Below, piece after piece: positions 42,468 to 49,738 of a DNA stretch of 64,000 bases. The DNA comes from Pseudomonas sp. RSB 5.4 (lineage in GTDB: Bacteria; Pseudomonadota; Gammaproteobacteria; Pseudomonadales; Pseudomonadaceae). Numbering within the stretch: position 1 is the first letter of the stretch; every line of letters starts with the position of its first letter. Where the stretch lies: the NCBI RefSeq assembly GCF_037126175.1, contig NZ_CP146986.1, positions 3,748,501 to 3,812,500 of the forward strand. Reading direction: 5' to 3'. Below the pieces are notes generated by a model that ran no database searches, had not been told where the DNA came from, and saw only the letters and a list, made by a program, of their open reading frames with translations. A program made the translations under genes and the position numbers.

Positions 42468-44195
42468 ATGCGCCCACTCGCTTCTCTTGCACCCATTGCC
42501 CTGACCCTGATGCTCACCGCTTGCGGCGACGGCGAATCGCTGCTGCCCCCGGATGCACGGCTGCCGGATGGCGGACGCTATCGCGGCGAACTGGTCAACG
42601 GTTTGCTGCAAGGTCAGGGTCGCGTCGACTACCCCAACGGCAGCTGGTACGCCGGCCAGTTCGACAAGGGTCAGTGGCATGGTCAGGGCGAGTGGCACGG
42701 CAGCAATGGCGAGGTCTATCGCGGCCAGTTCCAGCAGGGACTGTTCGACGGTCAGGGCAGCCTGACCACCAACGCCAGCAGTTACACCGGCGGTTTCAAG
42801 CAGGGCCGACGCGATGGCGAAGGCACGCTGAAAGAAAACGCCATGACCTACCGTGGCGAGTTCAAGGCTGACCAGTATTCCGGGCTGGGCCGTCTGGAAA
42901 TGGACGACGGCAGCTCCTATCAGGGCCAGTTCGCCCATGGCAAACCCAACGGCGAAGGCCAGCGCGGCGACTCTAGCGGCAATACATTCAGCGGCCACTT
43001 CGTCAACGGCCAACTCGAAGGCAATGGCACCTTCAACAGTGCCGATGGCGACATCTATGTCGGCGGCTTCAAGAACAGCCAGCTGCACGGCAAGGGCCGC
43101 TATGAAAACGCCGACGGCGATGTCTGGCTCGGCCAATTCAAGGAAGGCGCACTGACCGGCAAGGGTGAACTGATCGGTGCCGACGGCAGCCATTACGTCG
43201 GCTACTTCAACGACTGGCGCTTCAGCGGACAGGGCCGTTTGAACCTGGCCGACGGCAGTTTCTACATCGGCGAATTCGACAGCGACAGCTACGCCGGACG
43301 TGGCACTCTGGTGCTGACCGACGGCACCGTCCTCAGCGGCACCTGGATCAACGGCCAGCGCGTACGTGACGCCGACGGCAAGCTGTTGCCCGACACCCTC
43401 GAACTCGGCCTGCTGGCCCAGGGTCGTCTGCTGGACGAGGCGCTGGCCGCCGTGCCCGCCTCAACGCCTGCGGTGGAGTTGTACACCCTGACCCTCGGTG
43501 GCGACGGCAAGCAAAGCGTGTTCCTGCGCGAGTCAGATTATGTCGCCAACATGCTCTCCACGCGGTTTGGCGCCTATGGACAAATCCGCCTGGTGAACCA
43601 TCGCGACCATCTCACCGACCGACCGATGGCCACCCGCGAAAACCTGCGCCGCGCCGCGCAGACCCTGGCCGAGCGCAGCGGCCCGGAAGACCTGGTGTTC
43701 ATCTACCTGACCAGCCACGGCACCGCCGAACACGAACTGGTGCTCGACCAGCCGCGCATGGAGCTGGCCGACCTGCCCGCCGACGAACTTGCCACGGTGC
43801 TGGCCCCGCTGAAAAATCGCGACAAGGTGATCGTGATTTCCTCGTGCTATTCCGGCGGCTTCATCCCCGCGCTGAAAGATGAGCGCACCCTGATCATGAC
43901 CGCCTCGCGCGCCGACCGCGTGTCGTTCGGTTGCTCGGAAGAAGCCAACTTCACCTACTTCGGCGACGCCTTGTTCGCTCAGGCCCTGAACCAGACCGAT
44001 GATCTGGAGCAAGCGTTCAAACTGGCCAAGGCCACCGTCGCCGAGCGCGAACTGGCGGACAACTTCGAAGCCTCGGAGCCGCAGATCTGGGCACCGAAAA
44101 CCGTACTGGCGCACTGGCAACTGCTGCGTAAACAGCAAGCGAGAAAAGCGTTGCAGAGTGCTGCATTGAACGACGGAGCAACAAACAGCAACTAA
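42468..44195 (+). CDS. MORN-repeat lipoprotein with C13/caspase-like peptidase domain
   Basis: A 575-residue protein with lipobox LTAC (Cys19). About eleven MORN repeats (residues 37-295) follow one another at 22-24 residues (YxGxFxxGxxxGxGxxxxxDG). Then a C13-type domain (about 335-550) shows FIYLTSHGTAEHELVL with His417 and VIVISSCYSGGF with Cys460, the dyad of legumain and caspase-like peptidases. Lipidation should anchor it to a membrane facing the periplasm. Its substrate is unknown; the MORN array may bind lipid or glycan. The 3' neighbour begins 27 bp later. Confidence 0.85.
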   Translation: MRPLASLAPIALTLMLTACGDGESLLPPDARLPDGGRYRGELVNGLLQGQGRVDYPNGSWYAGQFDKGQWHGQGEWHGSNGEVYRGQFQQGLFDGQGSLTTNASSYTGGFKQGRRDGEGTLKENAMTYRGEFKADQYSGLGRLEMDDGSSYQGQFAHGKPNGEGQRGDSSGNTFSGHFVNGQLEGNGTFNSADGDIYVGGFKNSQLHGKGRYENADGDVWLGQFKEGALTGKGELIGADGSHYVGYFNDWRFSGQGRLNLADGSFYIGEFDSDSYAGRGTLVLTDGTVLSGTWINGQRVRDADGKLLPDTLELGLLAQGRLLDEALAAVPASTPAVELYTLTLGGDGKQSVFLRESDYVANMLSTRFGAYGQIRLVNHRDHLTDRPMATRENLRRAAQTLAERSGPEDLVFIYLTSHGTAEHELVLDQPRMELADLPADELATVLAPLKNRDKVIVISSCYSGGFIPALKDERTLIMTASRADRVSFGCSEEANFTYFGDALFAQALNQTDDLEQAFKLAKATVAERELADNFEASEPQIWAPKTVLAHWQLLRKQQARKALQSAALNDGATNSN

Positions 44196-45312: not shown

Positions 45313-45952
45313 CGCTGCTCAGATGATGTTCGCCCCAGCGCGGCAGCATGTCCTGCGGAATGCCCAACAGATTGAGAATCCGCGCGACGACGAAATCGAT
45401 CAGGTCGTCGATGGTCTGCGGCTGGTGATAGAAGCCCGGCGAGGCCGGCAGGATGGTCACGCCCATGTTCGACAGCTTGAGCATGTGTTCCAGATGAATG
45501 CTCGAATACGGCGCCTCGCGTGGCACCAGAATCAACTGGCGACGTTCCTTCAAGGTGACGTCCGCCGCGCGCTCGATCAGGTTGTTGCACGCGCCCGTGG
45601 CAATCGCCGACAAGGTACCCGTGGAACACGGCACCACGACCATCGCGGCCGGTGCGCCGGAGCCCGAGGCTACCGGCGACATCCAGTCTTCCTTGCCGTA
45701 CACACGGATCTGCCCGGCAGCGGCGCCGGTGTATTCGGTGAGGAACGCCTGCATCATCTGCGGCTTGGGCGGCAGCGTGACATCGGTTTCGGTGGCCATC
45801 ACCAGTTGTGCGGCCTTGGAGATCAGGAAGTGCACTTCGCGATCTTCACGCACCAGACAATCGAGCAGGCGCAAACCGTACTGCGCGCCGGACGCGCCGG
45901 TCATCGCCAGCGTGATGCGTTCCGGGCCGCCGTTCTGGGAAAAAGTGTTCAT
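45305..45952 (-). CDS. ubiX: Flavin prenyltransferase UbiX
   Basis: UbiX prenylates FMN to make the cofactor of the UbiD decarboxylase in ubiquinone synthesis. The 215 residues have [15 protein letters not shown] for FMN binding, [13 protein letters not shown] and [14 protein letters not shown]. The ATG at 45952 forms an ATGA overlap with the mpl stop. The upstream in-frame region is inside mpl and has no family similarity. Confidence 0.94.
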
Positions 45953-47298
45953 TGCAGTGCCTCGGCGAGTTTGCCGTGCAGACCGCCGAAGCCGCCGTTG
46001 CTCATGATCACCACGTGAGTGCCAGGCTGGGCCTGACTCTTCACGCGTTCGATGATGCCTTCGAGCGAGTCGCTGACAATCGAGGGCACGCTGCACAGTG
46101 CGGCGGTGGCTGCCAGATCCCAACCGAGATTGGCCGGGGCGTACCAGATCACCTGATCGGCATCGACCACGCTGTCCGGCAGACCGTCACGGTGCGCGCC
46201 GAGCTTCATCGAGTTGGAGCGCGGCTCGATGATCGCGATCAACGGGGCGTCGCCGATGCGCTTGCGCAAGCCATCGAGGGTGGTGGCGATGGCGGTCGGG
46301 TGGTGGGCGAAGTCGTCGTAAATGGTGATGCCGCGCACTTCGGCGACTTTCTCCATCCGGCGTTTGACGTTCTTGAATGCGCTCAACCCGGCGATGCCCA
46401 TCGACGGCACCACACCGACATGCCGCGCCGCTGCCAGCGCAGCCAAGGCGTTGGCGACGTTGTGCTGACCGGTCAGCTCCCATTCGACAGTGCCCTGGGA
46501 CACGCCTTCGAACATCACTTCGAACGCCGAACCGTCATCCTTGAGCAACTTGACCTGCCACTGACCGCCGACACCGGTGGTCTGCACCGGGGTCCAGCAG
46601 CCCATTTCGATCACACGCTGCAGGGCAGGCTCGGTGGTCGGGTGGATCACCAGACCTTCGCTCGGGATAGTGCGGACCAAGTGGTGGAACTGCCGCTCGA
46701 TCGCCGGCAGGTCGGGGAAGATGTCGGCGTGATCGAACTCAAGGTTGTTGAGGATCGCGGTGCGCGGGCGGTAGTGGACGAACTTCGAACGCTTGTCGAA
46801 GAACGCGCTGTCGTACTCATCGGCCTCGATCACGAAGAACGGCGTACCGCCCAACCGCGCCGACACCGAGAAGTTCTGCGGCACCCCGCCGATCAGGAAC
46901 CCCGGGCTCATGCCGGCGTGTTCCAGCACCCAGGCGAGCATGCTGCTGGTGGTGGTCTTGCCGTGCGTACCGGCAACCGCCAGCACCCAGCGCCCTTGCA
47001 GCACGTGATCGGCCAGCCATTGCGGGCCGGAGACGTAGGGCAGACCTTTGTTCAGCACATATTCCACCGCCGGATTGCCGCGGGACATGGCGTTGCCGAT
47101 CACCACCAGATCCGGCGCCGGATCGAGCTGGGCCGGATCGTAGCCCTGGGTCAGCTGAATGCCCTGGGCCTCAAGCTGCGTGCTCATCGGCGGATAGACG
47201 TTGGCGTCGGAGCCGGTCACGTGATGGCCCAGCTCTTTGGCCAGAACCGCCATCGAGCCCATGAAAGTCCCGCAGATACCCAGAATATGAATGTGCAT
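45949..47298 (-). CDS. mpl: UDP-N-acetylmuramate:L-alanyl-gamma-D-glutamyl-meso-diaminopimelate ligase
   Basis: Mpl joins recycled murein tripeptide to UDP-MurNAc. The 449 residues show the Mur-ligase ATP loop GTHGKTT (110-116), the N-terminal [14 protein letters not shown] nucleotide motif and the C-terminal [10 protein letters not shown] motif. The ATG at 47298 is the family start; the open frame upstream to 47514 reads through REP DNA. Together with LdcA and the transglycosylases it makes this a murein-recycling neighbourhood. Confidence 0.95.
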
Positions 47299-47830
47299 AG
47301 TCGACCTCGTAAAACATGGCCGCAGGTTAGCGTAGGGTGGGAAAAATCGCACCTTGTGTTTCGTCTGCACCGACGCCTTCGCGAGCAAGCCCGCTCCCAC
47401 AAGGATGGCGCCAATCCTGTGGGAGCGGGCTTGCTCGCGAACGGCGCGACGCGGTTTAACGGGAGATCGCGTGCTTACGCAGCTTTCTATAGAGGGTGTT
47501 GCGGCTGACCCCAAGCTGCTCCCACAAGGATGGCGCTAATCCTGTGGGAGCGGGCTTGCTCGCGAATGGCGCGACGCGGTTTAACGGGAGATCGCGTGCT
47601 TACGCAGCTTTCTATAGAGGGTGTTGCGGCTGACCCCGAGCTGCTCCCACAAGGATGGCGCTAATCCTGTGGGAGCGGGCTTGCTCGCGAATGGCGCGAC
47701 GCGGTTTAACGGGAGATCGCGTGCTTACGCAGCTTTCTATAGAGGGTGTTGCGGCTGACACCGAACTGCTCCCACAAGGATGGCGCCAATCCTGTGGGAG
47801 CGGGCTTGCTCGCGAATGGCGCGACGCGGT
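47299..47830. other. Intergenic region between mpl and eatR
   Basis: The 532-bp gap is occupied almost wholly by one REP pair and the tandem array that copies the eatR 3' end. I see no separate gene, and the three extra eatR tails lack any start codon or upstream reading frame. Confidence 0.8.
47377..47455. repeat. REP pair (family A) at the start of the tandem array
   Basis: A reverse copy (GCGAGCAAGCCCGCTCCCAC) and a forward copy (GGGAGCGGGCTTGCTCGCG) flank a short spacer. Only this left arm is complete; the following units repeat the part from CTCCCAC onward. Confidence 0.9.
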
Positions 47831-47893
47831 TTAACGGGAGATCGCGTGCTTACGCAGCTTTCTATAGAGGGTGTTGCGGCTGACACCGAGCTG
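47394..47893. repeat. Four tandem 125-bp units of REP plus eatR 3' end
   Basis: Units start at 47394, 47519, 47644 and 47769. Each holds CTCCCACAAGGATGGCG, a forward family A REP, a spacer and 63 bp identical or nearly identical to the last 20 codons and stop of eatR. The fourth unit carries the real gene end. The units differ at only a few sites (for example 47411/47536, and the GACCCCAAG/GACCCCGAG/GACACCGAA variants near each 3' junction). Period and identity were read by eye. Confidence 0.93.
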
Positions 47894-49738
47894 CTGCGCG
47901 GTCTGGGTCATATGCCAATGTGTCTGTTCCAGCGCGTTGAGTAGCGCCACACGTTCAGCGTCTTCCAGCGGATGCTCGGACTCAACCGACTTCAGCTCCA
48001 GCGTCGGCCGCGCCTGCCGAATCATCGCCGGCAAATCCTCCAGCCCGATCCGCCCCTCATCGCACAACGCCGCCAATGTGCGCAGCACATTGCGCAACTG
48101 CCGCACGTTGCCCGGCCAGTTGAAGGTCAGTAACGCCTGACGCGCCGGTTCGTCGATCACAATCACTTCGCCATCCGCCTCCTCGGCCAGCAGGAAATCC
48201 AGCAACTGCGACTTGTCGCTGCGCTCACGCAACGCCGGCAACGCGACCTCCAGGCCATTGAGCCGGTAATACAGATCTTCGCGGAAACTGCCGTCCGCCA
48301 CGCGCTCCAGCAGATTACGGTGAGTGGCGCTGATGATCCGCACGTTGACCGCTTCCGGCTCGCCGCCGATCGGCACCACCTGCCGGTCTTCCAGCACCCG
48401 CAACAAACGGGTTTGCAGCGCCAGCGGCATGTCACCGATTTCATCCAAAAACAGAGTACCGCCATCGGCCTGCTGCAACTTGCCGCGCATGCCGTCCTTG
48501 CGCGCACCGGTGAAACTTCCGCCGCGATAACCGAACAGTTCGCTCTCGATCAGGCTTTCGGGGATCGCCGCGCAGTTGAGGGCGACGAAGGCTTTGTTGG
48601 CGCGCTGGCTGGCGTGATGCACAGCCTTGGCAAAGGCTTCCTTGCCCGAGCCGGTTTCGCCATTGATCAGCAGCGGCACGTCGCGTTCGAATACCCGCAA
48701 CGCCTTGCGGAAATCCGCTTGCAGCGTTGCGTCACCGAGGCAAATGCCCGCCAGTGGCTGGGCCTTGGCCACAACTGGGGCCGGGGTGATCGGCGCCGGT
48801 TTACGCGATTCGCCGCGCAACAAGGCAAACAGATGTCGCCCGTCGCGGGTGCGCAGCGGCCAACTGGCGCTGGCATTGGCGCTGGCACGACCGAGCAATT
48901 CATCCAGCGAACAATCGAAAAACGCTTCCACCGGTTTGCCGAGCAAACCACCGCGAATATGCCCCAGCAGATTCAACGCACTCTGGTTGACCGCGCTGAT
49001 CCGCCCTTCCCCGTCAAACGCCAGCAGCCCTTCGCTGAACAGGCCGACCGATTCGGCCTGAAGATGGAACCGCAGCAGCCACTGATTATCGAAGCAACGC
49101 AGGAAATAGCAGCTCTCGATCATCTTCGCCGACAGATTGACCAGCGCCATGGTGTGGAACTGGCTCTGCCGCGAGACGTCATGGCGCGCCGAGGACACGT
49201 CGAGCACCGCCAGCAGTTCGCCGTGCGGGTCGAACACCGGGCTCGCCGAGCAGGTCAGGCCGGTGTGGCGGCCGCGAAAGTGTTCGTCCTGATGGATGGT
49301 CAGCGCCTGGCGTTCGACCAGGCAGGTGCCAATGCCGTTGGTGCCTTCGCAGGCCTCGCTCCAGTCGGCGCCGAGCCAGAGCCCGGCCCGTTCGAAAATC
49401 TTGCGCTCGGCAGGTGCGGTGACGCAGTTGAGGATCACCCCGCGCGCATCGGTCAACAGCACCGCATGACCGGCGCCGGACAGCTGCTGATGCAGGCTGC
49501 TCATTTCATTGCCGGCGATCTGCAGCACCTGTTGCAGGCGTTCGCGACTTTCGAGCACGCGTCCGTGCTCAAGCACGGTGGGCGCCATGGTCAGGGCCGG
49601 ATCGAGGTGATAGTCCTCAAGACAGCGCAGCCACGAACGGGCAATCGAAGGGTCGGCACCGGGCCCGTGCAGGTGCGGCTTGCCCTGAGTGACGGTGAGC
49701 ACCTGTTGGGCATGGCGACTCAAATGGTTGTCGTGCAT
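47831..49738 (-). CDS. eatR: Sigma-54-dependent regulator of ethanolamine catabolism (EatR/AcoR type)
   Basis: A 635-residue enhancer-binding protein with an N-terminal GAF sensor (about 60-215; CEGTNGIGTCL), a PAS-like region (about 230-300), an AAA+ domain with Walker A GETGSGKE (360-367) and Walker B TLFLDEIG, and a C-terminal Fis-type helix-turn-helix (about 605-635). The sigma-54 contact loop reads GSFTGA (407-412) instead of GAFTGA. By position and neighbours it is the counterpart of EatR (PA4021), which with RpoN activates ethanolamine genes. It is divergent from exaC, and its 3' end is copied in the adjacent array. Confidence 0.88.
   Translation of the reverse strand: MHDNHLSRHAQQVLTVTQGKPHLHGPGADPSIARSWLRCLEDYHLDPALTMAPTVLEHGRVLESRERLQQVLQIAGNEMSSLHQQLSGAGHAVLLTDARGVILNCVTAPAERKIFERAGLWLGADWSEACEGTNGIGTCLVERQALTIHQDEHFRGRHTGLTCSASPVFDPHGELLAVLDVSSARHDVSRQSQFHTMALVNLSAKMIESCYFLRCFDNQWLLRFHLQAESVGLFSEGLLAFDGEGRISAVNQSALNLLGHIRGGLLGKPVEAFFDCSLDELLGRASANASASWPLRTRDGRHLFALLRGESRKPAPITPAPVVAKAQPLAGICLGDATLQADFRKALRVFERDVPLLINGETGSGKEAFAKAVHHASQRANKAFVALNCAAIPESLIESELFGYRGGSFTGARKDGMRGKLQQADGGTLFLDEIGDMPLALQTRLLRVLEDRQVVPIGGEPEAVNVRIISATHRNLLERVADGSFREDLYYRLNGLEVALPALRERSDKSQLLDFLLAEEADGEVIVIDEPARQALLTFNWPGNVRQLRNVLRTLAALCDEGRIGLEDLPAMIRQARPTLELKSVESEHPLEDAERVALLNALEQTHWHMTQTAQQLGVSRNTLYRKLRKHAISR

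Follow-up and report, generated by a model that had tools for sequence, protein, structure and literature searches.

Tandem duplications with a repetitive extragenic palindrome (REP) at the join are known from enteric bacteria, as are the bacterial interspersed mosaic element 2 (BIME-2) arrays, which are both tandem and REP-containing. In Pseudomonas, the closest described systems are the clusters of REPINs (REP doublets forming hairpins) of P. fluorescens SBW25, where the main text reports 16 tandem clusters that include flanking sequence, the largest with four REPINs and one REP, and where a second mechanism was proposed for the clusters by Bertels and Rainey in 2011 (PMC3116915). The 64,000-nucleotide window analyzed here, one continuous stretch of the chromosome of Pseudomonas sp. 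RSB 5.4 (the source genome; contig NZ_CP146986.1, positions 3,748,501 to 3,812,500), contains an array in which part of a REPIN is repeated together with the 3' end of a gene for a sigma-54-dependent regulator, probably eatR. The array probably arose through a REPIN-linked copying error, and arrays of the same kind are found behind several other genes of this genome.

Like the ordered clusters of SBW25, the eatR array is made from the abundant REPIN class of its genome and consists of near-identical units with flanks. Unlike those clusters, as far as they are presented in the main text, it has the coding end of a gene as its flank, and three of its four units lack most of one REP, so that a single complete REPIN is left and the units do not carry two REPs each. 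Neither coding flanks nor a recurrent join is mentioned in the main text on the SBW25 clusters (PMC3116915), and gene tails in REPIN arrays were not found in the titles and abstract beginnings of the open-licence literature, among the matches listed. Judged against that text, tandem REPIN clusters with flanks are known, and the coding tails, the truncation and the recurrent join appear to be new.

The array behind eatR

Tandem Repeats Finder (TRF) identifies a single tandem array in the whole window, at positions 47393-47895, with a period of 125 bp, 4.0 copies, 98% matches, 0% indels and a score of 957. The four units mismatch at 5 of the 125 columns, a similarity far above chance, and lie at positions 3795894-3796393 of the chromosome, which is assembled as one contig of 6.24 Mb. 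TRF and unit comparison agree with the original prediction on the unit starts (47394, 47519, 47644 and 47769) and on the 63 bp of gene 3' end in each unit, that is, the last 20 codons of the regulator gene plus the stop codon. Along the reading direction of the gene, the order within a unit is 20 terminal codons plus stop, a 14-bp spacer, a whole REP, 16 nt and GTGGGAGC, after which the sequence returns to the gene tail; the rest of the REPIN, GGGCTTGCTCGCGAA, is present only after the last unit.

The sole complete REPIN (47378..47441, no strand; located by sequence and DNA folding) comprises two inverted 24-nt REP arms with 16 nt between them and as DNA folds into a long hairpin (-37.1 kcal/mol, z -11.2), compared with -10.4 kcal/mol for the truncated form at 47519-47566, likewise folded as DNA. 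The units themselves have no strand. Unit 1 (47394..47518), the most distant from the gene, starts inside the left arm of this complete 64-nt REPIN; in unit 2 (47519..47643) the REPIN is cut down to one REP and the stub GCTCCCAC; unit 3 (47644..47768) has a truncated REPIN and a tail copy with a leucine-to-phenylalanine change; and unit 4 (47769..47893) joins a truncated REPIN to the real 3' end of the gene. The predicted 'REP half' per unit thus needs correction: a part of the REPIN is indeed repeated, but units 2-4 hold a whole REP plus the 8-base stub. By the relaxed motif, the array has four REPs on one strand and one on the other, and the 22-base REP core occurs 1049 times in exact form in the source genome.

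The three extra tail copies, each with 20 codons and a stop on the minus strand, are distinguished by the variants CTT GGG GTC at 47456..47518 (synonymous), CTC GGG GTC at 47581..47643 (the same as in the related genome G254) and TTC GGT GTC at 47706..47768 (leucine to phenylalanine). Join 1 (47518..47520, no strand) lies where GCT is common to the gene tail and the REP arm, as seen in the sequence and in the comparison of units and of joins; joins 2 and 3 are at 47643-47645 and 47768-47770, and the donor sites at 47393-47395 and 47893-47895. The shared trinucleotide accounts for the wider boundary given by TRF. A short shared sequence at the join had been suggested from the start; it is present and can be narrowed to GCT, 3 bp, and the reading as a tandem duplication with such a join is supported.

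The locus in related genomes

A 78-base query (tail plus spacer) was searched against 298 genomes of the genus and matched 147 of them; among the matches listed, four tails occur only in the source genome. Four other genomes have two matches, the second of which lies elsewhere in the genome in G207 and G235 and is, in G071 and G088, a weak one outside the matches listed. The best match is G254, another species (95%), where the corresponding place holds one complete REPIN and a single tail, so that the copy number at the eatR locus is four in the source genome vs one in the closest relative found; comparison of related strains had been proposed as a check on the array. From this comparison, one REPIN and one tail is the expected ancestral state. 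The tail is single in 32 of the 32 orthologue loci examined, 29 from the 78-base search and three from another search. In Pseudomonas sp. PB120, a REP of another class occupies the corresponding gap.

The codons CTC GGG GTC are present in both G254 and unit 2, and GGT is found in the gene and unit 3. This pattern hints at a duplication earlier than a change in the gene, at a site that is a variable wobble position. Columns 47412 and 47510, the ancestral states of which are uncertain, show all four combinations within units and are linked, by eye, if phased across the join; exchange between units is not required, and the variant pattern was rejected as proof of it.

Recurrence behind other genes

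A census of same-strand pairs of exact REP cores in the source genome, covering gaps of 60-121 and 153-183 bases, gave 29, 2 and 11 matches, and together with the loci found by a join pattern these yielded 13 distinct arrays called by TRF. By a composition test, five of the 13 contain the stop of a coding-like frame: the eatR array (125 bp x 4), an array at a gene for a methyl-accepting chemotaxis protein (MCP; 113 x 2, 3.024 Mb), one at a glycosyltransferase gene (108 x 3, 5.637 Mb), one at an isochorismatase-type gene (183 x 3, 5.985 Mb) and one at a gene without a Pfam match (117 x 2, 6.147 Mb). A sixth tail array, which is old and escapes TRF, follows a DeoR-type gene at 2.248 Mb.

Five of these six tail arrays, namely four of those called by TRF and the DeoR-type one, join at a single point of the REP, GGGAGC|GGGC, i.e. 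GTGGGAGC|GGGC, with 3-6 shared bases (AGC, GAGC, GGGAGC, AGC and GGAGC). The searches that turned up the eatR, MCP and glycosyltransferase arrays placed no condition on the join. If all matches of at least 3 bases between the REPIN and the last 250 bp before it were used equally, the common point would be expected in 0.7-2.7% of joins per locus, a crude model that serves as a guide only and gives no P value. Several arrays besides the five tail arrays show unequal REP counts per unit by the relaxed motif. At another locus of the source genome (3188323-3191373), the REPIN interior is apparently repeated after GTGGGAGC and joined to other bases, with no gene tail.

At four of the five other tail-array loci (glycosyltransferase, isochorismatase-type, MCP and the 6.147-Mb gene), G254 is single-copy, and these four arrays therefore most likely arose separately in the source lineage. 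At the DeoR-type locus, G254 has four tails vs two in the source genome, in keeping with the earlier proposal that copy number can vary in such arrays. Two joins of the G254 array (C1:3751200-3752900) have 7 and 10 G where the source genome has TGTGGGAGC; these runs would reflect mutation or homopolymer sequencing.

Arrays in related genomes

Same-strand REP pairs are frequent in the six REP-rich relatives covered, with between 5 and 98 in each (in a census of gaps of 91-121 and 153-183 only, with part of the matches turned into loci). A coding-like stop was flagged in four of the 17 arrays from relatives, and on inspection by eye two of the four hold up, L199 in G256 (178 bp x 3) and L226 in G254 (195 bp x 2). 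In the other two, L182 and L184, the stops are doubtful by eye, and these were not counted as tail captures. Given the two convincing cases, gene-end capture does not appear to be confined to the source genome. Like the eatR array, L199 and L226 take gene 3' ends into a REPIN array; unlike it, their units retain both REPs.

The exact REP core is present in 154 of the 298 genomes. Two of the 298, the source genome (five matches, three loci) and G067 (one match), match a strict pattern for truncated arrays with the common join, a pattern that overlooks arrays with changes, the DeoR-type one of G254 among them. The G067 locus (C41:50115-51890), in another species, shows the same truncated REP join in an array of three 137-bp units that reaches the contig end; a coding-like stop was not found in the part up to that end.

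The regulator gene and its neighborhood

The array is adjoined by an intact gene for a sigma-54-dependent regulator of 635 amino acids (47831..49738, minus strand; open reading frame and domain matches), with an AAA+ domain and a Fis-type helix-turn-helix (HTH) domain at residues 591-631; the multiplied tail corresponds to residues 616-635. The gene is divergent to one that matches the acetaldehyde dehydrogenase ExaC above the cut-off, and in P. aeruginosa the EatR gene is described as the immediate neighbor of the eut operon, on its upstream side and in the opposite orientation (PMC5821096). Because of this arrangement the regulator is likely to be eatR, a name that is not given by any family model.

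All extra tails lie downstream of the stop codon of the intact regulator, and the differences between tails are synonymous except for the one in unit 3, at a leucine kept in 32 of the 32 orthologue loci. For these reasons it is unlikely that the array alters EatR, and the original suggestion that it could change the DNA-binding tail of the protein is not borne out. Every tail difference is located within 10 bases of a join, and therefore unequal exchange would restore identical last 17 codons. No sign was found that the array serves EatR. The most that it would change is the 3' untranslated region separating the regulator from mpl (45949..47298, minus, 449 amino acids; TIGR01081 above the cut-off), which follows directly downstream on the same strand; an effect on transcript stability or on mpl is possible. 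A simple scan of 47200-48000 detected no terminator-like and no sigma-70 promoter-like sites. Elsewhere in the window, at 42468-44195 on the plus strand, an open frame of 575 amino acids starts, by eye, like a lipoprotein, contains MORN-like repeats and resembles a caspase at its end.

Origin of the arrays

The array is best explained, with some confidence, by a copying error linked to the REPIN, involving template switching and later expansion, with an array that is probably neutral. The starting point would be a REPIN 14 bp behind the stop of the sigma-54 regulator gene. In the copying error, the outer REP, broken after GTGGGAGC, would have been joined back into the gene tail, with which it shares AGC (GCT on the other strand), so that 125 bp were duplicated; the unit includes the last 20 codons and the stop because REPINs sit close behind genes. 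The shared bases are found at the 3' end of the strand that would just have copied the REPIN, which is the placement that switching at a hairpin would need; the first join was probably made by template switching of the nascent strand at the REPIN hairpin, with the 3-base match at its 3' end as primer. The copy number would later have grown from two to four by generally known routes, either slippage at the long direct repeats of 125 bp or unequal exchange between them, and the extra tails would have stayed untranslated, with EatR unchanged.

Several observations weigh against this proposal. Microhomology alone leaves the recurrence of one REP position unexplained, and a site-specific step may be involved. 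In the 6.147-Mb array the join falls within the loop of the REPIN and lacks clear shared bases; the joins of L199 and L226 lie outside the REPs; and among the joins at the DeoR-type locus of G254, one is different and the two mentioned above contain G runs. The DeoR-type array of the source genome was found only by a pattern that imposes the join point, and the isochorismatase-type array was found with this pattern first and only later without it. Neutrality, too, is no more than probable.

A possible but distinctly less probable author of the first join is a REP-associated tyrosine transposase (RAYT), which would act on single-stranded DNA, cleaving it at C|T on either side of a REP, once at CGC|TCCCAC in the partner REP and once at GC|T in the gene tail, and rejoin the strand beside the original to give a tandem copy. 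The C|T is at the same place of the REP in all five recurrent joins, TnpAREP enzymes are reported to cleave and join at C|T 5' or 3' of the REP, including some distant sites (PMC8266576), and among four matches to the Y1 transposase family in the source genome one (156841-157149) exceeds the cut-off of NCBIfam NF047646, REP-associated tyrosine transposase, and has REPs of the class on both sides. However, C|T in the joins would also be present under microhomology; shared stretches of 3, 4, 6, 3 and 5 bases would not be expected if C|T alone sufficed; a GTGG guide, as in the REP of the array, gave CC or CA cuts in one tested enzyme (PMC8266576); and the excision footprints of SBW25 REPINs, as presented, seem to end elsewhere in the REP. 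More doubtful still is a broader version: in the source lineage, a site-specific process, most likely driven by a RAYT that cuts the partner REP at C|T, would turn gene 3' ends into tandem arrays again and again, so that REPINs and their transposase together duplicate the ends of the genes before them. No REPs of the relaxed motif occur in the 3.3 kb around each of the three further Y1-type transposase matches of the source genome (L228, L229 and L231).

That the locus is a contingency locus, where recombination between units changes the DNA-binding end or the expression of EatR and is kept by selection, is very unlikely, even though the captured tail spans the second half of the Fis-type HTH domain and the similar DeoR-type array differs in copy number between two related genomes. 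In a contingency locus the repeats lie within the gene or upstream of it, where a change in copy number alters product or expression; here the extra copies follow the stop of the gene, with one non-synonymous difference, at a conserved leucine; moreover, four tails are seen in only one of the 298 genomes, among the matches listed, and arrays of the same kind lie behind unrelated genes. This recurrence favors a repeat-driven copying accident over a switch for the protein. An assembly artefact is the least credible explanation: although the repetitive nature of the array alone would speak for it, the units carry different substitutions, so that, as originally noted, they are not simply duplicated reads, and for this reason an artefact was rejected; the assembly consists of one contig, 500 bp is short for an artefact, and arrays with other unit lengths exist at other loci and in other genomes.

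Implications

For the origin of REPIN clusters, the source genome offers a set of six gene-tail arrays, five of them with a common join point. A single-copy orthologue in a close relative, available for eatR and for four of the five other arrays, makes the origin of such clusters testable. If the copying-error explanation is true, REPINs would give rise to small duplications that affect the coding ends of many genes.
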